Virus record (IMG/VR): IMGVR_UViG_3300022602_003276
Location: 1-27,800 of that record
Source: a virus
Direction: 5' to 3' (one strand)
DNA length: 27,800 nucleotides
A program made the position numbers and the translations under genes. A model generated the notes under the pieces. It ran no database searches. It saw only the letters and a list, made by a program, of their open reading frames with translations, and was not told where the DNA came from. Positions within the stretch are counted from its first letter, which is position 1; each line of letters begins with the position of its first letter. This document shows, one piece after another, positions 1,771 to 18,042 of this stretch.

Positions 1771-1778
1771 TATTTATG
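1771..1778 (-). promoter_or_regulatory. Late-promoter-like motif CATAAATA
   Basis: CATAAATA on the minus strand ends seven bases before the ATG at 1763, the same spacing as the motif at 282-289. It overlaps the TAA stop of the upstream gene, so the downstream gene could be transcribed independently of the bilin reductase operon. Confidence 0.55.
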
Positions 1779-2454
1779 CTATTTCAGGGAACAGGCATTC
1801 CTGGATGAATATACGTACATCTTCCTCGTCGAGCCCTAAACTGGCCATAACACGGGGTGTATGTGGGTTTTGTTTTTGATTATCACAGTAATAATTTTGG
1901 AAACTGGTAGTATCTAATACGGTATTGTTAGTTTCACCTACTGTAGATAGATAGTGCGATAGTGTAGTCTTAGCCATTTCTGTAATCTGATCCAGTTCTG
2001 CTTCGTCCTGGACATTACCTGCGGCAACCATGTGTTCGGTAAAGATACGCTGTGCCCACTCGGGTAAGGCACGCGGTTTGCGCCATTCTAGTTTACTTAC
2101 TTCTTGGCCAAACCATTCTATCATAGGATGAAATGTATCGCCTGCCGGGCTAAAATCATGGAAACAGCCGGTCATCTTCCTAGCACCAGCTACTACGTCA
2201 AACCCATATATTGGAGCAGGATTATGTATGTGTGGAAAGATGCAACAATGCATCATCCAGAGCCCTCGTGTATCTCGTGCATCAACCACATCAATATGAG
2301 CGCGGCGATAAAGAGGAGAACTCCATACACGATTAACCCACCCAGGTTGGTTAAATCGATCCATTCCAGGTTCAAAGATTTCAGTGCCAGTCCGGCCAAA
2401 TTCAGTCTCCAATAAGTGCTGAATATTTATTAATGTATCCCATACCTTACTCAT
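1774..2454 (-). CDS. pcyX: Ferredoxin-dependent bilin reductase, PcyX/PebS-like
   Basis: The 226-residue protein matches the FDBR family (PcyA, PebA, PebS, PcyX), which reduces biliverdin IX-alpha to phycobilins with electrons from ferredoxin. Visible landmarks are WMMHCCIFPH (H69, aligning with catalytic His88 of PcyA), NPAPIYGFDVVAG (D86, aligning with Asp105) and FHDFSP near residue 100. The C-terminal YYCDNQKQNPHTPRVMASLG resembles the FDBR C-terminal helices, including an Asp (D191) where PebS-type enzymes use one. Length is typical of the short phage forms. It overlaps the upstream heme oxygenase by ATGA, so substrate production and reduction are translationally coupled. The FDBR assignment is strong; PcyX rather than PebS, and hence phycoerythrobilin as product, is inferred from the non-cyanophage setting. 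Confidence 0.85.
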   Translation of the reverse strand: MSKVWDTLINIQHLLETEFGRTGTEIFEPGMDRFNQPGWVNRVWSSPLYRRAHIDVVDARDTRGLWMMHCCIFPHIHNPAPIYGFDVVAGARKMTGCFHDFSPAGDTFHPMIEWFGQEVSKLEWRKPRALPEWAQRIFTEHMVAAGNVQDEAELDQITEMAKTTLSHYLSTVGETNNTVLDTTSFQNYYCDNQKQNPHTPRVMASLGLDEEDVRIFIQECLFPEIA

Positions 2455-2984
2455 TTATACACCGCGTTAAGCATTTTAATAGCATATTCGAAAGCTGTAC
2501 GAGCTTCGGGCGCCATATCATCTGTTAGTTTAGCTCTTAGATTATTTTTTAATGTAGTAGCATCTTCAAATTCTAATGCATAGTGAGTAGGTGCAGGAAT
2601 GATCTTTTTAATCATCTGTCCGCCGTATAAGTCTCCCATGTGCCACACGTATAAATGAGCCAGTGCCTGATAGGGTGTAAGATTTTCTATATAATCGATA
2701 TATTCGTTTACTACCGGGTTATTACTGTTATCACTAGGAATCCAATCGCCATTTCGAATAGCAATGTAATCTTCAAACAGAGGCCTGGCACGTTTAATTC
2801 CTTGCAAATCGTCTAATAAATCGCCTTGTTCACATTTAGATTCTATCGCGGCATAAAACATGTGTCGCCAGTATGTCCATTCTTCCCATGTATCCAAAGG
2901 CAATGATTTAGCAAACACCGCTTTCATAAAAGGTGTTTGTTCAGCGGCATCGTGCAGATCTGCTGTGAGTTCTTTTAGACTCAT
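2451..2984 (-). CDS. ho: Heme oxygenase (biliverdin-producing)
   Basis: The 177-residue protein carries the heme oxygenase signatures: an N-terminal helix with the proximal heme ligand His (H11 in DLHDAAEQTPFMK) and the distal-helix motif HMGDLYGGQMIKK around residues 115-127, including the conserved Asp (D118) and flexible glycines. The enzyme opens heme to biliverdin, Fe2+ and CO using oxygen and reductant. It is somewhat shorter than cellular HO1 (about 210-240 residues), as is usual for phage forms. It starts within the stop of clpS (ATGA) and ends within the start of the bilin reductase gene (ATGA), giving a tight clpS-ho-pcyX cluster. Confidence 0.93.
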   Translation of the reverse strand: MSLKELTADLHDAAEQTPFMKAVFAKSLPLDTWEEWTYWRHMFYAAIESKCEQGDLLDDLQGIKRARPLFEDYIAIRNGDWIPSDNSNNPVVNEYIDYIENLTPYQALAHLYVWHMGDLYGGQMIKKIIPAPTHYALEFEDATTLKNNLRAKLTDDMAPEARTAFEYAIKMLNAVYK

Positions 2985-3283
2985 TCTTCTTCCAATTTAA
3001 TCTGTAATGGATAACTGTTGGTACGAGCTTGGTTAGTTGCTTCAACAGCTTTGGCTTCGGCGATTTCAAAACTGTATAATCCGGCTACACCTGAACCAGT
3101 TTCATGCACTTGCAACATAATATCTTGAGCCGAATTTTGTGTGTGTTTGAATACATCAACCAGTATTGCAATAACAAACTCCATTGGAGTAGTGTCATCA
3201 TTTAACAGAATAACTTTCCAACGCTTCGGTTCTGATATAGAGATTTTAATTTTTTCGTCGATTACTACATCTGTTGTTGACAT
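2981..3283 (-). CDS. clpS: ClpS, N-end-rule adaptor of ClpAP
   Basis: The 100-residue protein shows the ClpS core: KVILLNDDTTPMEFVI (binding-pocket N28, D29, D30), QVHETGSGVAGLYSFEIAE with H60, and the closing AR..YPLQ segment. ClpS binds proteins with bulky N-terminal residues and hands them to ClpA for degradation by ClpP. Its N-terminal tail of about 20 residues, needed for ClpA engagement, is present. No clpA or clpP is in the window, so it would have to work with the host protease. It lies 44 bp after hsp20, separated by a GNRA-loop hairpin, and is preceded by a weak GAGAAAGAG ribosome-binding site. Confidence 0.93.
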   Translation of the reverse strand: MSTTDVVIDEKIKISISEPKRWKVILLNDDTTPMEFVIAILVDVFKHTQNSAQDIMLQVHETGSGVAGLYSFEIAEAKAVEATNQARTNSYPLQIKLEEE

Positions 3284-3327: not shown

Positions 3328-3759
3328 TTATTTAATTTTAATTGTACGTGGTTGTAGTGCTTCTGGAACGATACGCTCAATTTCAACAATAAGCATACCA
3401 TCTTTCACTTCAGCATCTTTCACTTCCATGTATTCTGCAAGAGTCCAGCTTTGTGCAAAATCACGACTGGCAAGACCACGATGCAAATATTCTTTGCCCT
3501 CTTGATCTTCTTTTTGAGATTGTGTACCACGAACAACTAATTGATCTTGATCCACTTCTACAGTGATTTCGTCTTTGCTGAAACCCGCTACTGCGATCTC
3601 GATAGCATATTTGCTATCGCTATACTTCACAATGTTATGTGGAGGATAGTTACTATTTTGCAATCTAGTTTGATTAAAATATTGATCAAATCCTACTAGT
3701 GCTCTACTTAGGTTGGCGAATTCCGCCGGTGTTACAGTTCTTAATTGCATTGTTGCCAT
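3328..3759 (-). CDS. hsp20: Small heat-shock protein Hsp20 (IbpA-like)
   Basis: The 143-residue protein is an alpha-crystallin-domain holdase. It has the NYPPHNIVK entry to the domain (about residues 37-45), the EYLHRGLASRDFAQSW segment (about 89-104), the DGMLIVEIER strand and a C-terminal IKIK (I-x-I) tail used for oligomer assembly. Hsp20 proteins hold unfolding proteins for refolding by DnaK and are common in T4-like phages. The start is supported by a strong AAGGAG site. The leader contains GCTTAATTA just upstream of the ribosome-binding site, as does the dnaK leader. It lies 69 bp after dnaK and a strong hairpin. Confidence 0.92.
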   Translation of the reverse strand: MATMQLRTVTPAEFANLSRALVGFDQYFNQTRLQNSNYPPHNIVKYSDSKYAIEIAVAGFSKDEITVEVDQDQLVVRGTQSQKEDQEGKEYLHRGLASRDFAQSWTLAEYMEVKDAEVKDGMLIVEIERIVPEALQPRTIKIK

Positions 3760-3828: not shown

Positions 3829-5733
3829 TTACTTCTTCTCGTCTGCGTCAACTTCTTTGAAGCTGGCGTCGACAGTTTGGCTATCATCAGCTGTTGGCTG
3901 GGCTGCCTTGGCTTGCTCAGCTTCTTGCTTCTTAGCCATCACAGGTCCCATTGCTTCGAACAATTTTGGAAGTGCTTGCTGGATTGCTTCAGCATCGTCG
4001 CCCTTAGTTGCGGTATCCAAATTATCTAAAGCAGTAGTGACTGCTGTTTTTTCTTCTTCTGTAAGTTTGTCTTTGAATTCCTCAAAGTCTTTCTTCAAAC
4101 TATGTGCCTGTGCGTCTGCCTGATTACGTGCCTCAATAAGTTCTTTCTGTTTCTTATCTGACTCGGCATTTTCTTCAGCTTCGCGAATCATACGATCGAT
4201 ATCTTCTTTGCTGAGTCCTGAATCACTCTTAATGGTGATCTTGTTCTCTTTGCCAGTATTTTTATCCTTGGCACTTACATTAAGAATACCGTTAGCATCG
4301 ATGTCTAGAGTAACTTCAATCTGTGGAGTACCACGCATTGCTGGAGCGATACCTTCTAGATTGAATTCGCCTAATAGTTTGTTGTAACGGAACAAATCAC
4401 GTTCACCTTGTGCTACTTTGATAGTAACTGCTGGTTGGTTGTCTTCTGCTGTTGAGAAGGTTTGTGAATGTTTAGTTGGGATTGTTGTATTCTTCTGAAT
4501 CAACTTAGTAAACACACCGCCCATTGTCTCGATACCCAATGTCAATGGAGTAACGTCTAACAATAGAACGTCTGTCTTGTCACCAGCTAGTACAGCACCT
4601 TGTACTGCGGCACCTGCGGCTACAGCTTCGTCTGGGTTAACATCACGACGTGGAGCCTTGCCAAACAGTTTCTCAACTGCTTCTTGTACCTTAGGCATAC
4701 GTGTCTGACCGCCAACTAGAATAACTTCGTCGATGTCTGCGGCAGTAACCTTGGCATCTGCCATACAGGTCTTGCATGGATCGATTGAACGTGCAATCAA
4801 TTCTTCAACCATAGCTTCGAATTTAGCACGTGAAATAGTTACATTCAAGTGTTTTGGACCACTAGAATCTGCTGTGATGTATGGCAAGTTTACTGTGGTT
4901 GAATTTGAGCTAGACAATTCAATCTTGGCTTTTTCTGCGGCTTCTTTCAAACGTTGTAAAGCTAATACATCTGTCTTAAGATCCATGCCGCTTTCTTTCT
5001 TAAATTCAGCAACTAGGTGATCCATTAAACGTTGATCGAAATCTTCACCGCCTAGGAATGTATCGCCATTTGTAGCAAGTACTTCAATCTGCTTATCGCC
5101 ATCTACATTTGCAATTTCGATAATTGAAATATCAAACGTACCACCACCTAGATCGTATACAGCAATCTTACGATCTTTCTTATCTGTCTTATCAACACCG
5201 TAAGCAAGAGCGGCCGCTGTTGGCTCATTAATGATGCGTAGAACTTCTAGACCAGCAATCTTACCTGCATCCTTAGTAGCTTGGCGTTGGCTGTCGTTAA
5301 AGTAAGCAGGCACGGTGATAACTGCTTGAGTAACTGTTGTACCCAAATAGTCCTCTGCTGTCTTTTTCATTTTGCGCAACACTTCTGCTGACACTTGCGG
5401 AGGAGCAAGTTTTTGTCCATTTGCTTCAACCCATGCGTCACCGTTTTCTGCCTTGACAATTCCATAAGGCATTAAACTGATATCTTTCTGTACTTCCTTT
5501 TCGTCAAATTTACGTCCAATTAGACGTTTGACTGCGTACAATGTATTCTTTGGGTTTGTGACTGCTTGTCGTTTTGCTGTTGCACCTACTAGGATCTCGT
5601 CCTTTGTATATGCAATGATTGATGGTGTTGTTCTAGCACCTTCGCTGTTTTCAATTACTTTAGCAACTCCGTTTTCTAAGATTGCTACACAGCTATTTGT
5701 TGTACCTAAATCGATACCGATGATTTTACTCAT
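3829..5733 (-). CDS. dnaK: DnaK (Hsp70) chaperone, full length
   Basis: This is a complete 634-residue Hsp70. It has the phosphate-1 loop [11 protein letters not shown], the [12 protein letters not shown] and [13 protein letters not shown] nucleotide-binding motifs, [13 protein letters not shown], the interdomain linker [13 protein letters not shown], a substrate-binding domain and a charged helical lid ending DADEKK. Length and motifs match bacterial DnaK with no truncation, so ATPase and peptide binding should be intact. No dnaJ or grpE is present, so host cochaperones are presumably used. It is preceded by AAAGGAG and an 85-base leader from a GATAAATA late promoter. A full cellular-type dnaK is uncommon in phages, and acquisition from a bacterium is likely. 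Confidence 0.97.
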
Positions 5734-5830: not shown

Positions 5831-6565
5831 TTATTCTTTTATATTTTCGAATAAAAATTCTGCTTCTGGAATACGTGTATGGGTATTTTTACTACCTAAA
5901 ACTACTACTATCCGTTTGCCTACGTCTGTGTCTAACATCATAACTATACATCCGCCCGACGCATTTATATAACCCGTCTTGCTTACTATAAATTTATGCC
6001 TTTTGCCTATGATAGGGTTTGTATTGTGAAATACTAACCAACGCTTTCTCACTTTTATCTTAACTTCGCTGGTACTTGCGGCACGGACAATTTCTGGATA
6101 AGTGCTGGCATGTTTAACTAAATGTATTAGATCGCTAGCAGTACTAACATTCATTAGACTTAGTCCTGTGGGCTCAACGAAATTAGTATTTTCCATGCCT
6201 AGCCAATGTGCCTTAGCATTCATGGCCGTGATACAGTGAGTATAGCCGGTGGGATAATTGTCGCAGAGATTTTTTGCCGCCATATTATCGGATCTCACTA
6301 AAGCCATTTCTATCAGTTGTTTTCTCGTAAAAAGACCAATTTTTTCCTCTAATGGTTGATTAGCATCTAATACTACTATTACCGTCATAAGTTTGCTTAT
6401 ACTAGCGATACTACGCACTTGCTCAGGATTAGAGCTTTGAAGTATTTTGCCGTTTTCGTCAGCAACGAGCCAACTTTTAGCAGTAAGAGAAGGCCATTCG
6501 AGTGCGTAACTATAGGAACTGACCAATAATCCTATTAGGATTATAAGTTTTCGATAGTTGACCAT
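5831..6565 (-). CDS. PBP7-like D-alanyl-D-alanine endopeptidase with signal peptide
   Basis: The 244-residue protein begins with a signal peptide (KLIILIGLLVSSYSYA, about residues 6-21) and carries all three motifs of serine D,D-peptidases (family S11): S-x-x-K as S55-I-S-K58, S-x-N as S92-D-N94, and K-T-G at 196-198. The arrangement resembles E. coli PbpG (PBP7), which cleaves D-Ala-meso-DAP cross-links in the periplasm. The complete active site suggests a working enzyme that loosens peptidoglycan from the periplasmic side. It overlaps the MazG-like gene by 25 bases. Such enzymes are rare in phages; roles in lysis, wall remodelling or superinfection exclusion are inference. Confidence 0.88.
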   Translation of the reverse strand: MVNYRKLIILIGLLVSSYSYALEWPSLTAKSWLVADENGKILQSSNPEQVRSIASISKLMTVIVVLDANQPLEEKIGLFTRKQLIEMALVRSDNMAAKNLCDNYPTGYTHCITAMNAKAHWLGMENTNFVEPTGLSLMNVSTASDLIHLVKHASTYPEIVRAASTSEVKIKVRKRWLVFHNTNPIIGKRHKFIVSKTGYINASGGCIVMMLDTDVGKRIVVVLGSKNTHTRIPEAEFLFENIKE

Positions 6566-6816
6566 TTTTTAAGTTTTTCACGTTTGTTTAATGCGGCTTG
6601 TTCAATGTTAGTCCAACTGACAACATCCATTTCTTGTAGGATTTCAATCATGGCATACAAATCGCCTAGTTCTTCTTCCAAGTGTTCTCTATTGGTTTTG
6701 GGTTTACCTGGCTTAAAGTTATCAAGCCCAAAGCGACTAATTTTACTTACCGCTTGTATAACTTCAGCACACTCTTCTTGGAGAATGTCCATTACTTCTT
6801 TAGTTTGACTGTCCAT
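6541..6816 (-). CDS. MazG-like nucleotide pyrophosphohydrolase
   Basis: The protein is 91 residues from the chosen ATG at 6814-6816 (MDSQTKEVMDILQEECAE). It has the all-alpha NTP-pyrophosphatase metal motif: E14-E15-x-x-E18 in QEECAEVIQ and EEELGDLY (E49, D52) about 35 residues later. MazG-type enzymes hydrolyse (d)NTPs to monophosphates and have been proposed to lower (p)ppGpp or clear damaged nucleotides during infection. An in-frame upstream start at 6840 would add eight residues, but the internal start suits the family better. It overlaps the small gene upstream by 17 bases. Confidence 0.82.
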   Translation of the reverse strand: MDSQTKEVMDILQEECAEVIQAVSKISRFGLDNFKPGKPKTNREHLEEELGDLYAMIEILQEMDVVSWTNIEQAALNKREKLKKWSTIENL

Positions 6817-6979
6817 TTTGTGCCTCTTGTAAAATTTCAATTAATTGTGGAATAATTTTTTCATCTAATACTACACTATATCCTTTAGCTGACCCTGTAT
6901 TAAGTTTAATTTTAATAAGTGAATCTACAATGTCTACCCAACAGTAGACTTCTCCATCGGGTTTAGTTATTTCTCTCAT
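6800..6979 (-). CDS. Unknown 59-residue protein
   Basis: A complete small frame starts at ATG 6977-6979, overlapping the exonuclease stop by ATGA, and ends at TAA 6800-6802, overlapping the MazG-like gene. The protein reads MREITKPDGEVYCWVDIVDS at its start and ends with a short amphipathic helix (IIPQLIEILQEAQ). I do not recognise it. The coupling overlaps at both ends argue that it is translated as part of the exonuclease-MazG-peptidase operon. Confidence 0.7.
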   Translation of the reverse strand: MREITKPDGEVYCWVDIVDSLIKIKLNTGSAKGYSVVLDEKIIPQLIEILQEAQNGQSN

Positions 6980-7563: not shown

Positions 7564-7592
7564 ATTATAACAGATCTAGTTTGCTGTGTCAA
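7564..7592 (-). promoter_or_regulatory. Consensus sigma70 promoter, leaderless exonuclease gene
   Basis: TTGACA (7587-7592) and TATAAT (7564-7569) on the minus strand are separated by exactly 17 bp, a perfect sigma70 consensus. Only six bases separate TATAAT from the ATG at 7557, so transcription should start at or next to the start codon. The -35 box overlaps the stop codon of the bS21 gene. Confidence 0.88.
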
Positions 7593-7822
7593 TACATTTT
7601 TTTGGGCAGTTGCTGGCCTTCGAGTTTCTTTCTCCAGCGAGCACGAGCCGCACCTTTTTTACGCTTACGTTCTGTAGTGGGTTTTTCGTAAAATTCCTTG
7701 GCTCTCAACACGTCTAACAGTTTTGAATCATCAATCTTACGTTTGAATCTTCTCAAAGCCTGATTGATATTTTCACCGTCACGGACACTGACTCCTGTGC
7801 CTTTAATCTTCTTGGGTATCAT
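7589..7822 (-). CDS. rpsU: Ribosomal protein bS21
   Basis: The 77-residue protein matches bS21 of the 30S subunit: IKGTGVSVRDGENINQALRR followed by FKRKIDD, and a basic tail rich in Lys and Arg (TTERKRKKGAARARWRKKLE). bS21 sits near the mRNA exit/anti-Shine-Dalgarno site and helps initiation. The start at 7820-7822 follows a good GAGGAAGG site and gives the usual short N-terminus; a longer in-frame start would add 13 residues unlike the family. It overlaps the upstream gene by 20 bases. Phage bS21 genes are known and thought to favour phage mRNA translation. Confidence 0.93.
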   Translation of the reverse strand: MIPKKIKGTGVSVRDGENINQALRRFKRKIDDSKLLDVLRAKEFYEKPTTERKRKKGAARARWRKKLEGQQLPKKMY

Positions 7823-8219
7823 CGTCGTTACCTTCCTCCTCTGCTTTAATTTGTTCGACAATCCAATCTAAGTTATAAATTCTATTTTTACTTAATAATT
7901 GGTATGGAGTTGTTTCATCTTTGGTCATGTAATAGGCATTAGGATGCGATAACATAAAAGTGACAAACTTATGTGTTATTGGATCACAATTATCAACATC
8001 AATAATTATGCAATCTACTTGATGGCTTACACTTAACATCCAACCAATATCTATATCATCATTATCAAATATAAAGACATTCAAGTCTTCCATACTTCTA
8101 CTTAATATTGTTTGAAACTGTTCTTTAACGTGGTTACCGGGTTTAACTAATAGATAGCTCAAGTTACTGTTAAAAAATCTATCCGGCGGAGTTATTAGAG
8201 TTATTTTTCCTAAGTTCAT
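7803..8219 (-). CDS. Unknown 138-residue acidic-tailed protein
   Basis: I do not recognise a named family. The protein starts MNLGKITLITPPDRFFN at ATG 8217-8219, is predicted alpha/beta, and has a DNDDIDIGWML segment, a CIIIDVDNCD strand with clustered Asp residues, and a very acidic tail (EEEGNDDDTQED). An in-frame TTG fifteen bases upstream is a less likely start. The start lies inside the end of the -1 frame that continues the upstream membrane-protein gene (overlap 8179-8219), and its end overlaps bS21, so all three are probably co-translated. Confidence 0.72.
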   Translation of the reverse strand: MNLGKITLITPPDRFFNSNLSYLLVKPGNHVKEQFQTILSRSMEDLNVFIFDNDDIDIGWMLSVSHQVDCIIIDVDNCDPITHKFVTFMLSHPNAYYMTKDETTPYQLLSKNRIYNLDWIVEQIKAEEEGNDDDTQED

Positions 8220-12382: not shown

Positions 12383-12709
12383 TTATACTCGGAAACTTTC
12401 TCCACATCCGCATTCACCTCTGGAATTGGGATTGGTGAATTCGAAACCTTCATTGAGTCCATTGCGGACCCAATCCATTGTTAAGCCTGATAAGTAAGGC
12501 TCGTCTTTCATACTTACAAGTACACAGAATTCGTTTTGAGCATAATTGATTATGCCTTCTTCTCCGTCATACTTGTCCACATATTCCAACACATAGGCCA
12601 AGCCCGAGCAACCGGTAGTTTTTACGCCTATGCGAATACCAACGCCTTTACCTCGACGTGCCAAATTCTGTTTGATTTTTTTACTGGCTGTGTCTGTTAC
12701 GGTAATCAT
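12383..12709 (-). CDS. iscA: A-type Fe-S carrier protein (IscA/ErpA-like)
   Basis: The 108-residue protein has the three conserved cysteines of A-type carriers: C34 in KTTGCSGLAYVLEY, and C100 and C102 in the C-terminal ECGCGESF. The length is typical. These proteins accept or bind Fe-S clusters or iron and pass them to target apoproteins. The gene directly abuts the iscU stop (no gap), so the two are co-expressed. IscA and ErpA cannot be separated by motif alone; the pairing with iscU favours IscA. Confidence 0.93.
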   Translation of the reverse strand: MITVTDTASKKIKQNLARRGKGVGIRIGVKTTGCSGLAYVLEYVDKYDGEEGIINYAQNEFCVLVSMKDEPYLSGLTMDWVRNGLNEGFEFTNPNSRGECGCGESFRV

Positions 12710-13093
12710 CTAATGTAGATTGTTTTTCTGTTTATAATCCGCAATGGCAGACTTCAATGAATCTTCCGCTAGGATTGAACAATGTATCTTTACCGGAGGT
12801 AAAGATAGTTCCTCTGCAATCGCTGAATTTTTAATTGTACTTGCTTGTTCAAGAGTTTGTCCTTTTAGCCATTCAGTTACTAGAGATGAACTTGCAATAG
12901 CACTGCCACAGCCATAGGTTTTGAATTTTGCATCTACAATAATTCCGTCTTCGACTTTAATTTGCAACTTCATTACATCTCCGCAGGCCGGACTTCCGGT
13001 GAGTCCTGTGCCAACGTTGGGATCATTCTTATCAAACGATCCTACATTTCGAGGGTTTTCATAATGGTCGATTACTTTGTCTGAATAGGCCAT
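12710..13093 (-). CDS. iscU: IscU Fe-S cluster scaffold
   Basis: The 127-residue protein begins MAYSDKVIDHYENPRNVGSF, the IscU signature, and keeps all cluster ligands: C37 and D39 (SPACGD), C62 (YGCGSA), and H104-C105. The LPPVK motif (98-102) recognised by the specialised Hsp70 HscA is intact. IscU assembles [2Fe-2S] clusters from IscS-derived sulfur. No iscS, hscA or hscB is in the window, so host partners would be used. It follows two bases after the exported protein gene and adjoins iscA. Confidence 0.95.
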   Translation of the reverse strand: MAYSDKVIDHYENPRNVGSFDKNDPNVGTGLTGSPACGDVMKLQIKVEDGIIVDAKFKTYGCGSAIASSSLVTEWLKGQTLEQASTIKNSAIAEELSLPPVKIHCSILAEDSLKSAIADYKQKNNLH

Positions 13094-14608: not shown

Positions 14609-15709
14609 TTATACTGCGGGCAAGGCATCATAGTCAATGCCATCGCTCATCACACCAATTACATAATTGGTCGATTCGGATTCTTGTAATGCTGTTTGTT
14701 TACTACTTGTATTAACGTGTTTATTGAACCAAGGGATCGGAGTTGACCTAGGGGCGGCCTGTTGATATTTGATTCCAATATCTTTAAGTGCGCCCACTGC
14801 TGTATAGTCTACAAAGTCTTTGAGAATGTTTGCGTTTAATCCAATAACTGGACCTTTCTTAAATAGGTAGTCTGCCCATTCCTTTTCTTCACGGATAACA
14901 TCCATGTAAAGAGCATATACTTCCTGTTCACATTCCTGCTTTGCTTTGGCGAATCGACTATCTTCTTTAACCACTTGGTTAATCAAAAAAGCAGTCCAAC
15001 CTTTGTGCAATAATTCATCTTGTAGAATTAAACTGATAATGTTACCATTACCAATAAAGATCTTGTTCTCTATCATAGCAAGACTTGTAGCAAAACTAAC
15101 CATAAAGCGGAACGCTTCAAGGGCGTAGCTGGCATTTAGGGCTAACCAAATAGCCTTGATGTGATCTACCTCTTTAATGTTCCCGTTACATTCCACAGCA
15201 CAATTGATTTGGTGTAGATCGTCGTAGTATTTGCCTACACTCGATGCCATACTAATAATCTCTTCAGTGTCGTGAATTGTATTAAACACATCCTTGGGCA
15301 CGTTGTAGATATTACGGATTATGTGACTATAGCTCTTGCTGTGGATGTTGGTTTCAAAGAACCCCCAGTTGTACATGAGAGCTTCGACTTCTGGAATGGA
15401 ACACACCGGAGTAAATACTTGTGTTGGTCCACGACCTTGAAGACTATCAAGTGCTGTTTGACGTAATAGATTTGAAGTAAAAATATGTTTAACTGCATCG
15501 CTCGCATCCTTAAAGTCATTTGCGTCTTTGGTAAGACTTATCTCTTCAGGTTGCCAGAAGAAGCCTCGGGCTGTCGCTTCAAAATCTGCAATCTTCTTGT
15601 ATTTAACCTCTTCGAATCTCTGTATAGTTACAGGACCAGCTGGATCCAAAAACATCTTACGATTCAAATAGTCTGTCTTTGTCTGTAGGTTATATTGTTG
15701 TTTGCTCAT
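14609..15709 (-). CDS. nrdB: Ribonucleotide reductase class Ia, beta subunit NrdB
   Basis: The protein has 366 residues from the ATGA-coupled start at 15707-15709 (an ATG nine bases upstream is too close to the GAGG site). It carries D88 (LDSLQGR), Y127 (HSKSYSHIIRNI, radical tyrosine), H123, E198 (ALEAFRF), E232 and H235 (DELLH) of the di-iron/tyrosyl-radical site. The first Glu-His pair reads E119-T-N-I-H123, one residue longer than E. coli E115-x-x-H118. The subunit makes the radical used by NrdA; the C-terminal tail for NrdA docking is present. It overlaps nrdA by four bases. Confidence 0.95.
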   Translation of the reverse strand: MSKQQYNLQTKTDYLNRKMFLDPAGPVTIQRFEEVKYKKIADFEATARGFFWQPEEISLTKDANDFKDASDAVKHIFTSNLLRQTALDSLQGRGPTQVFTPVCSIPEVEALMYNWGFFETNIHSKSYSHIIRNIYNVPKDVFNTIHDTEEIISMASSVGKYYDDLHQINCAVECNGNIKEVDHIKAIWLALNASYALEAFRFMVSFATSLAMIENKIFIGNGNIISLILQDELLHKGWTAFLINQVVKEDSRFAKAKQECEQEVYALYMDVIREEKEWADYLFKKGPVIGLNANILKDFVDYTAVGALKDIGIKYQQAAPRSTPIPWFNKHVNTSSKQTALQESESTNYVIGVMSDGIDYDALPAV

Positions 15710-18042
15710 AGTTTGCATGCCTCGCAGTCATCTTCTAATTCTTCGTAATGGAATCCGTTCAGTTGGACACCATCGACTTTTGTTTCTTCAACTTCGACTG
15801 CCTTACTGCCAGCTTTATTAATTAGACTATAATAGAACGTTTTTAATCCCCATACTTGAGCTTGCATCAAGTTCTTAGCGATCAGTGTAGTTGGTACTTT
15901 ACGATCCGCAAAGTGTGCTGGATTGTAAAAAGTGTTAGTACTTATACTTTGATCAACATAGGCGGCAAGAACTGCGGCGGTTTTAATATACCCATCGCAG
16001 TCTCGTTGATCCCACATTAGCTGATACTTGTTCTTAAGTTTATGATATTCAGGAACAACTTGAATAAATGATCCGGCTTTACTTTCTTTAACGCTGATCA
16101 AACTCATGGGTAACTCAATTCCATTAGTGCTGTTTATAACAACACTACTGCTTTCGACTGGTGCAATAGCCATTAGTGTAGCATTGCGCACTCCGTACTG
16201 TTTCATATTGGTACGTAGTGTTTCCCAATCAAGTTCTGGAGTAAAATCTGCTAGTTCGTTTGCACCTTCAGCACGTAATTCCCAAGGAAATACGCCTTGG
16301 CCGTATCGTGTATGTGTGCTATGCAGACAAGGTCCACGCTCTCGGGCTAACTCAACTGTTGCTTCAGTTAAGTAATAGGCTTGATGCTCCATCCAACTTT
16401 TAACATCTTGAAGTGCATCCTTCTCTCCATACTTTAATCCACGCTTGGCATGCCAATAAGCTAAGTTTGTAACTCCGATGCCTAATGGTTGTATTTCATC
16501 ATTACTTAGTTTGCTTTGTATACTTAGAAAATCTTGATAGTCAAGTATATTGCAAAGACTACGTTGTAAAATTCTACATGCCCTGCGCATGTCTTCCGGA
16601 TTTCTAAATGCACCCCAGTTGATAGATCCAAGAGTGCATAACGCTATGCGGCCATCCTCATCGTCAAGACGCTTAAATGATTTAGTGGGCAGTAGAATTT
16701 CACAGCATAAGTTACTTTGATAGATGGTATGATACTCGGGATCAAATGGTCCTTGCTTCTGTACATTATCGATAAACACAAGATAGATACGTCCAGTATC
16801 TGTACGTTCTTTTAATATTCCGCCTTTGAATACTTCCTCCGCTGTCATTGTTTTAGTCCGCAAGTCTGTTCGCTTTTCATATTTTACATACAGTTCTTCA
16901 AATTTTTCTGTGTTACGATAAAAGGCTTCATATAAGTCGGGTACTTCATTCGGATCAAAGAAGGTAATGTTTTCTTTGTTCTTAAATCGTCTCCAAAAGA
17001 ACTTGCTAATGACAACTCCATAGTCCATGTGTCTAACTCTTGTTTCCTCTGTGCCTTGGTTGTTCTTAAGAACAATAAGGTCATCAAACTGATGATGCCA
17101 AATGGGATAAAATACAGTAGCACTTGCATTACGAATACCTCCTTGACTGCAACTTCTAAGATCACCGAACCATTTCTTTAAGAATGGTATCATACCAGTG
17201 TGCATGATCTCACCGCCTCTAATGGGACTACCCAATGGACGTAAACGGCCGATCTCTAAACCAATGCCAGCACGTTTGCTAGCATACTTGGCCATCATCT
17301 CTCCAGAAGCAAATATGCTATCCAGATCGTCGTCACTGCGGATAAGCACACAACTAGAAAACTGCTTAGTCGGAGTGCCAAGGCCAGCCAGCACAGGTGT
17401 AGCGAGAGTAAACAGGCCATCGGATGCTGCCTGATAGTATTCTTTAATGTAACGCATCCTTGCGCTATTCGGTTCTTCTTTATGGAACACAGTAGCCGCG
17501 GCAATAATATATCTAATTTGTGGAGTTTCATAAATTTCCTTTGTCGCACGATTGCGTACCAGGTACTTCTCTATCAACTGCTCGATAGCCGCATATCCAT
17601 ACTGTTCATCCTTTTCGTGATCCAGCATATCATTCATTTTATTCCAGTCCTCTTCGCTGTACCACTCTAATAATTCGGGCGTATATAAACCTATGTCAAC
17701 ATTACGTTGCACAATAGAGAAAAGGTTTGGAACGGTATACGAACTGTATACATCTTTTCGTAGCATACTCAATCTTTGTTTACCTGCTACGTATTGATAG
17801 TTAGTATGACCTACATCCGGATTAGATTCGACATCGATTAGATCTACAATAGCACGTAACGTTATGTTATCAATCTCTGTTGTGGTAATACCGTCATAAA
17901 AATGAGGTTGGCTTTTGATTTCAATCATACTCTGACTGACATCGGCAATTCCTTGGCATACCTTGGCAATCTGCGCTTGCCATTTTTCAACTGCTAGTGG
18001 CTCTCTTTGTCCACTTCTCTTAATTACTGTAATCTGGGTCAT
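15706..18042 (-). CDS. nrdA: Ribonucleotide reductase class Ia, alpha subunit NrdA
   Basis: The 778-residue catalytic subunit reduces ribonucleoside diphosphates. An ATP-cone-like N-terminus (about residues 1-95: ITVIKRSGQREPLAVEKW) suggests dATP activity control. Active-site residues are C231 (QFSSCVLI), N444/C446/E448 (SNLCCEI), C469 (ALCTLGS) and the C-terminal C-x-x-C (DDCEACKL). The 446-469 spacing equals E. coli C439-C462. All catalytic parts are intact, with no intein or split, unlike several T4-like relatives. A long structured leader with a sigma70-like promoter precedes it, and nrdB and grx follow in the same operon. Confidence 0.97.
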   Translation of the reverse strand: MTQITVIKRSGQREPLAVEKWQAQIAKVCQGIADVSQSMIEIKSQPHFYDGITTTEIDNITLRAIVDLIDVESNPDVGHTNYQYVAGKQRLSMLRKDVYSSYTVPNLFSIVQRNVDIGLYTPELLEWYSEEDWNKMNDMLDHEKDEQYGYAAIEQLIEKYLVRNRATKEIYETPQIRYIIAAATVFHKEEPNSARMRYIKEYYQAASDGLFTLATPVLAGLGTPTKQFSSCVLIRSDDDLDSIFASGEMMAKYASKRAGIGLEIGRLRPLGSPIRGGEIMHTGMIPFLKKWFGDLRSCSQGGIRNASATVFYPIWHHQFDDLIVLKNNQGTEETRVRHMDYGVVISKFFWRRFKNKENITFFDPNEVPDLYEAFYRNTEKFEELYVKYEKRTDLRTKTMTAEEVFKGGILKERTDTGRIYLVFIDNVQKQGPFDPEYHTIYQSNLCCEILLPTKSFKRLDDEDGRIALCTLGSINWGAFRNPEDMRRACRILQRSLCNILDYQDFLSIQSKLSNDEIQPLGIGVTNLAYWHAKRGLKYGEKDALQDVKSWMEHQAYYLTEATVELARERGPCLHSTHTRYGQGVFPWELRAEGANELADFTPELDWETLRTNMKQYGVRNATLMAIAPVESSSVVINSTNGIELPMSLISVKESKAGSFIQVVPEYHKLKNKYQLMWDQRDCDGYIKTAAVLAAYVDQSISTNTFYNPAHFADRKVPTTLIAKNLMQAQVWGLKTFYYSLINKAGSKAVEVEETKVDGVQLNGFHYEELEDDCEACKL

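Follow-up and report, generated by a model that had tools for sequence, protein, structure and literature searches.

Phage cassettes of the HO-PcyX and HO-PcyA-AlaS kinds consist of a heme oxygenase (HO) gene followed by a gene for a ferredoxin-dependent bilin reductase (FDBR) of the PcyX or PcyA type, and belong to phages of non-cyanobacterial hosts (Wegner et al. 2024, PMC11480375). Members include the marine PcyX EBK42635, Pelagibacter phage Mosig and freshwater phage CB_2, whose PcyA yields a phycocyanobilin that can occupy a phytochrome (PMC11480375). In the running text of that paper the joint presence of HO, FDBR and alaS genes is termed 'still enigmatic', and ClpS is never mentioned there; its figures or supplement may already show clpS. 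Separately, ClpS, ClpA, DnaJ and ClpP are encoded by jumbo phages such as Agrobacterium phage Atu_ph07 and the Rak2-like phages (PMC6102473, PMC7824862), and Hsp20, known from cyanophages and pmoC-phages, is near-core in large aquatic, cyanophage-related phages (Chen et al. 2020, PMC7674155). A search of the open-licence literature returned no report of a proteostasis block in conserved union with HO-PcyX.

The window (the whole 27.8-kb stretch analysed) is a linear virus fragment, and the genes of the block described next are all encoded by its minus strand. Upstream in the block is a MazG-like pyrophosphohydrolase gene (6541..6840; Pfam 2.9e-6), of a kind that often precedes dnaK. It is followed by a D-Ala-D-Ala carboxypeptidase-like gene (S11; 5831..6565; Pfam 5.2e-40), which occupies this position in some near relatives only, and by dnaK (3829..5733; 634 aa; NCBIfam DnaK 1.7e-295, passing the cut-off). 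A gap of 69 bases separates dnaK from hsp20, a small heat-shock protein gene conserved just upstream of clpS (3328..3759; Pfam HSP20 1.2e-17), and a further 44 bases separate hsp20 from clpS (2981..3283; 100 aa; Pfam ClpS 1.5e-29), which encodes a predicted N-degron adaptor for ClpAP. The block ends with HO (2451..2984; 177 aa; Pfam Heme_oxygenase 5e-14) and the FDBR (1774..2454; 226 aa; Pfam Fe_bilin_red 6.8e-15). The last three reading frames are open and intact where the original prediction had placed them, and the two ATGA overlaps that it reported, between the clpS stop and HO start (plus-strand 2981..2984) and between the HO stop and FDBR start (2451..2454), are both real. Its clpS-HO-FDBR cluster stands, but the upstream start of the block (dnaK, hsp20 and often mazG) had been overlooked, as had the ClpA, ClpP and DnaJ encoded by relatives. 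Elsewhere on the same strand are nrdA (15706..18042; Pfam 4.8e-109) and nrdB (14609..15718; Pfam 9.9e-41, PHROG small subunit), encoding the large and small chains of ribonucleotide reductase, as well as iscU, a conserved-block Fe-S scaffold gene (12710..13093; Pfam NifU_N 1.6e-52), and the Fe-S carrier gene iscA (12383..12709; Pfam Fe-S_biosyn 4.1e-17). A ribosomal protein S21-like gene (PHROG 21469) also lies inside the conserved block, at window positions 7589-7861. The gene identities and the conservation of the coupled block can be regarded as close to certain.

The reductase resembles PcyX by several measures. By sequence, its best match among solved structures is PcyX EBK42635 (5owg, 7e-69), with PcyA far behind (8e-14). 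Profile scores are 299 bits for PcyX and 148 for PcyA, and all others tested score 43 or less, which places PcyX ahead of PcyA, PebS, PebA, PebB and HY2 as the nearest characterised FDBR. An AlphaFold model (pLDDT 94) superposes on 5owg with Z 25.7 and an rmsd of 1.0 Å over 177 residues at 48% identity. In a quick tree, many inner forks of which are weakly supported, a starred branch (98) joins the sequence to Mosig and PcyX_5owg and leaves cyanophage PcyA outside. The protein is clearly an FDBR, so that the first outcome named by the original prediction as counting against it, a reductase outside the FDBRs, did not occur. Asp55 of the window protein aligns with the Asp numbered 55 in the 5owg entry, the residue named as the PcyX-specific catalytic one by Wegner et al. 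2024 (in the text of PMC11480375), and the equivalent position in Synechocystis PcyA is Glu, the PcyA state. His69 and Asp86, which correspond to PcyA His88 and Asp105, are also present, as they are in all 168 distinct ClpS-linked FDBRs. Based on these scores, the modelled fold, Asp55, the catalytic His and Asp and the tree clade, the window reductase is assigned to the PcyX type, and its predicted product, drawing on family knowledge together with the residue check, is probably the pink bilin phycoerythrobilin. Of the earlier label 'PcyX/PebS-like' only the first half survives, the PebS profile reaching 18 bits; PebS identity, or a place on the PebA-PebS branch, is ruled out.

Position 55 is itself variable among the 168 distinct ClpS-linked FDBRs, with Asp in 149, Glu in 12 and other residues in 7. 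ClpS-linked FDBRs with Glu or Ser in place of Asp55 occur in L085, L086, L088, L089, L161, L303 and L310, and such proteins are perhaps phycocyanobilin makers like that of phage CB_2. This variability suggests that linkage to clpS is independent of any one predicted product. A scan of 84,980 genomes, using an alignment from which cyanophage PcyA had been left out (the first version being too diverse), found PcyX-type matches on five contigs only. Four of these are phage-like (L248-L251) and are binned into MAGs labelled Arcticimaribacter, Halobacteroidaceae, Pirellulales and Neomarinimicrobiota; three of them have hsp20-clpS-HO-FDBR, and L248 has the HO-FDBR part. The fifth belongs to the cultured bacterium Shewanella surugensis DSM 17177, whose FDBRs lie close to the PcyX branch. 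It carries HO with a truncated PcyX-like FDBR and a second FDBR of 256 aa with a transposase-like gene nearby (L252 7453-8225, L254 1405-2175).

The heme oxygenase is assigned to the HO-1/HmuO type. Its AlphaFold model (pLDDT 95.5) is all-helical and matches HmuO over all 177 residues (Z 22.2, rmsd 2.1), and the proximal His11 and the distal-helix residues D118 and G121-G122-Q123 (GD..GGQ) are kept in each of 123 distinct relatives, from which heme cleavage is predicted. Its history differs from that of its neighbours. Compared with L003-L011, the window FDBR is 87-91% identical and ClpS 77-80%, whereas HO is only 34-38% identical (in one comparison 91%, 79% and 35%, respectively). The closest HO sequences are instead those of L083 (80%) and L084 (69%), followed by L085, L086, L088, L089 and L161 (47-52%). 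Divergence of HO between similar neighbours, with the overlapping junctions retained, indicates that the gene was exchanged in place. This feature suggests a demand for an HO at this position, irrespective of the lineage from which it came. HO genes lacking an adjoining FDBR are found in other phages (L146 2485-3018, L148 515-1015), the one in L146 adjoining a helicase-like gene.

ClpS 3dnj is the closest solved structure to the window ClpS. Residues N28, D29 and H60, equivalent to the N-degron pocket of E. coli ClpS (N34, D35, H66), are present in all 92 distinct relatives. The same is true of T32 and P33 in the TPM loop, with M34 kept in 87. About 18 residues precede the core as an N-terminal extension, in which a DEKIK-like motif is frequent. 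In the putative ClpA-contact patch, which we take to correspond to E79 and K84 of E. coli ClpS, E73 is invariant and position 78 (K in the window) is mostly K or R. The protein passes the Pfam gathering score (102 vs 23 bits) but falls below the NCBIfam equivalog cut-off (best 98.5 bits vs 149), and it therefore represents a diverged phage lineage within the family and not a bacterial equivalog.

The junction between clpS and HO is far more constrained than that between hsp20 and clpS. Counted over distinct sequence pairs rather than contigs, 134 of 178 ClpS-HO pairs overlap by exactly 4 bases; the remainder have another overlap (6), a gap of 0-60 bases (28) or a gap of more than 60 (10). Such recurrence rules out chance or an assembly artefact. 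A 4-base overlap was seen in none of 177 hsp20-clpS junctions, and the length of the HO/FDBR overlap varies across relatives. Among the 134 pairs overlapping by 4 bases, clpS has a purine-rich ending, GGAAGAAGA or GGAGGAAGA, in 82. In the window these Glu-tail codons (GGAAGAAGA, 2985..2993) are Shine-Dalgarno-like with respect to HO, which suggests that the Glu-rich tail of ClpS can double as a ribosome-binding signal for the next gene. The sequence evidence for selected translational coupling of clpS and HO is good, and the overlap of both downstream start codons with the preceding stop makes coupled translation of clpS, HO and pcyX probable.

The arrangement is widespread. One limited pattern scan for the FDBR found relatives encoded on 277 viral contigs, and the first 163 loci predominantly show the order dnaK-hsp20-clpS-HO-FDBR, often with mazG in front; the same gene order was found in more than 100 viral loci. 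The carriers are large phages, mostly freshwater. The original prediction had proposed looking for clpS beside HO-FDBR pairs in other phages, and the paired arrangement is present in most relatives. Starting from ClpS, HO adjoins clpS in 78 of 79 newly fetched loci, and the exception ends 73 bases past clpS. In two wider ClpS scans, clpS adjoined HO at 80 loci, 15 loci had hsp20-clpS and no HO despite room (15 of the 94 cases with room), and 16 had neither hsp20 nor HO. Conversely, other phages have HO-FDBR pairs that lack clpS and sit amid tail-fibre and lysis genes. In the isolate Mosig an HO-FDBR pair occurs with no clpS match, and 2OG-Fe(II) oxygenases are found upstream of HO. Among isolates, clpS occurs mainly in jumbo phages, and none of these is among the HO matches in the phage collection. 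Pairwise divergence of ClpS correlates with that of Hsp20 (r 0.77) far more than with HO (0.33) or FDBR (0.12), a pattern that independent recombination of the modules would produce. The proteostasis block and the heme/bilin pair are thus repeatedly kept together, yet separable, and the occurrence of HO-FDBR in phages that have no clpS implies that the heme pair needs no ClpS.

Several variants of the locus were observed. In L251 (6390-8687) a carbon-nitrogen hydrolase-like gene of 351 aa lies between HO and FDBR, and the ClpS-linked loci L306, L361 and L371 have insertions of 0.6-1.5 kb at the same position. Where clpS is absent, 2OG-Fe(II)-oxygenase-like genes occur beside HO/FDBR in L079 (4799-5443), L124 (6479-7108) and L002 (11614-13451), and Mosig has a putative ferrochelatase near its HO-FDBR. 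In L116 (5490-6004), with the same FDBR type, two small unknown genes replace clpS, and one of them overlaps HO by 4 bases. Asn/Thr-rich repeat genes with signal-peptide-like starts lie downstream of the block in a 356-kb relative, G005 (284401-287530), and in L251 (10028-13682).

G005 is a T4-type genome, and its collinearity with the window begins at the FDBR and takes in iscA, iscU, PAAR, grx, nrdB, nrdA and several further genes; nrdA, nrdB, grx, iscU and iscA have the same strand and order in both. It also encodes a gp23-type capsid protein, alaS (~35 kb from HO-FDBR), clpP and a run of dnaJ, peptide deformylase (def) and clpA (172685-176277; L286 2686-6278), the deformylase fitting a theme of proteolysis based on N-termini. 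Among 15 large viral records carrying the block, 8 encode Clp_N proteins of ClpA size, compared with 0 of 10 viral records with HO-FDBR and no clpS beside it, a contrast that is only suggestive since it is confounded by record size. The full-length ClpA sequences of relatives keep the IGF/VGF loop that docks on ClpP. ClpP-family proteins occur in 10 of the 15; one match, in G011, looks by sequence more like a head-maturation protease than a functional ClpP. AlaS is encoded in 6 of the 15 and in the phage-like G016 contig, which connects the block phages with those for which Wegner et al. describe valaS (the three-gene cassette hemO-pcyA/X-valaS); it was not found in the other 9, some of which are fragments, nor in the window. 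Leucyl/phenylalanyl-transferase (Aat) and phytochrome PHY domains were absent from the 15 large relatives, and ferredoxin from 12 large-relative records.

The original prediction described the phage as T4-like and without photosystem genes. As to the first, a T4 gp23 capsid protein is encoded in 5 of the 15 large ClpS-linked records (214-383 kb), but the description cannot be read from structural genes of the window itself, in which no gp23-type major capsid protein was seen. These five carriers, which include collinear G005, are with one exception the largest ClpS-linked relatives tested. The second description is true of the window and extends to the 15 large relatives, where no psbA/psbD-type reaction-centre genes were found. 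The earlier claim of an HO-FDBR pair with a PcyX-like reductase in an apparently non-cyanophage phage is likewise supported. The host is probably non-cyanobacterial, and hosts of these phages may lack photosynthesis. DnaK points to no clear donor, being at most 73% identical to the matches listed among 398 sampled genomes of the phylum of Shewanella.

One reading of these observations is that the block, whose genes all run in one direction in a large T4-type phage, serves heme and iron salvage while the host proteome is remodelled. The protein-quality-control genes for DnaK, Hsp20 and ClpS are joined here to HO, which would open heme, and PcyX, which would reduce biliverdin. ClpS would guide N-degron substrates to ClpAP, for which relatives encode ClpA and ClpP of their own. 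Heme set free from degraded host hemoproteins by ClpAPS/DnaK turnover would be destroyed before it became toxic, HO opening it to biliverdin, Fe2+ and CO. PcyX would then reduce biliverdin, most likely to phycoerythrobilin, with host ferredoxin presumably feeding both enzymes, and by draining biliverdin it would pull the HO reaction. The iron could be reused by the phage ribonucleotide reductase (NrdB) and by IscU/IscA from the same collinear block. Intact active sites, the folds, the conserved block, the 4-base overlap and exchange of HO in place are consistent with this salvage model, as are ClpA and ClpP in large relatives, the collinear nrd and isc genes, and the absence of ferredoxin (12 records) and of PHY domains and reaction-centre genes (15 records). 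It is weakened by the separability of the modules, by ClpS divergence that tracks Hsp20 and by the size-confounded Clp_N contrast. The genomic coupling of ClpS, HO and PcyX is strong, but the functional link of pigment or heme breakdown to proteolysis suggested by the original prediction is a hypothesis. The salvage purpose is what we infer, and the full statement, purpose included, is put forward tentatively as one possible account. A more ambitious version, in which phage DnaK/DnaJ/Hsp20 and ClpA/ClpP/ClpS form a self-contained line for dismantling hemoproteins, with HO/PcyX recovering iron for ribonucleotide reductase and Fe-S proteins, is unlikely; if true, it would explain what the so far puzzling HO-PcyX genes do in phages of hosts other than cyanobacteria.

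The main rival holds that the proteostasis and heme/bilin genes are independent modules sharing an operon for timing or dosage in a compact T4-type genome, where ClpS would remodel the host proteome or protect phage proteins and HO-PcyX would work alone. That each module occurs without the other, that ClpS divergence is weakly correlated with that of HO and FDBR, and that Atu_ph07 has ClpS, ClpA and ClpP (PMC6102473) while not being among the HO matches all agree with such independence. It accounts less readily for a clpS/HO junction far more constrained (134/178 at -4) than that of hsp20/clpS (0/177), or for an HO that was displaced in place and not lost. On balance, it is a serious possibility and no less probable than salvage.

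Two further proposals give ClpS or the bilin a different part. ClpS might re-set host tetrapyrrole synthesis, with ClpAP degrading a heme-pathway enzyme (e.g. HemA/GluTR), HO draining heme and, in some relatives, phage AlaS replacing ALA supply. Plant ClpS does bind GluTR for degradation by Clp, and bacterial GluTR is turned over by Clp and Lon (PMC6597238). The alaS genes of six large block records and the G016 contig would suit this proposal, but the nine large records in which alaS was not found, some of them fragments, speak against it, and it appears quite improbable. Alternatively, the bilin itself might matter, be it as the chromophore of a photoreceptor in host or phage, as a regulator or as an antioxidant, with the ClpS linkage incidental. 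The conserved reductase after HO suggests that the end product matters, and the phytochrome-filling product of CB_2 PcyA (text of PMC11480375) offers a precedent. However, the 15 large relatives contain no PHY domain, and the variation at residue 55 (D 149, E 12, others 7; n=168) implies that there may be no constraint on which bilin is made, leaving this proposal rather improbable.

The block hints that these phages handle protein and heme breakdown jointly, and some of them carry ClpA, ClpP, ClpS, DnaK and DnaJ together. A conserved, overlapping partner gene narrows the puzzle of HO-PcyX to the cargo of ClpS, heme or iron limitation during infection, and the relevance of the bilin. The 277 contigs from one limited scan also show that aquatic phages carry HO-PcyX much more often than the small number of published contigs would indicate.

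Compared with the published HO-PcyX and HO-PcyA-AlaS cassettes, the window pair differs in overlapping clpS and in being preceded by hsp20 and dnaK; its FDBR is 48% identical to that of Mosig. It shares with PebS (P-SSM2) and cyanophage PcyA the reduction of biliverdin by a phage FDBR, here predicted, but is only 12% identical to PebS in the fold alignment and 24-28% identical to cyanophage PcyA, and unlike cyanophages the large relatives have no reaction-centre genes. As in the jumbo-phage Clp systems, dnaJ lies near clpA in relatives of the window. In contrast, heme is nowhere mentioned for Atu_ph07 (PMC6102473), and the jumbo-phage survey (PMC7824862) does not mention heme oxygenase; its phages, like Atu_ph07, are not among the HO matches. 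The text on pmoC-phages (PMC7674155) shares Hsp20 with this block but contains no ClpS, DnaK, heme or heme oxygenase. HO-PcyX cassettes and phage ClpS, ClpA and DnaJ are thus already known separately, and what appears new, relative to the literature searched, is their conserved union in one block.
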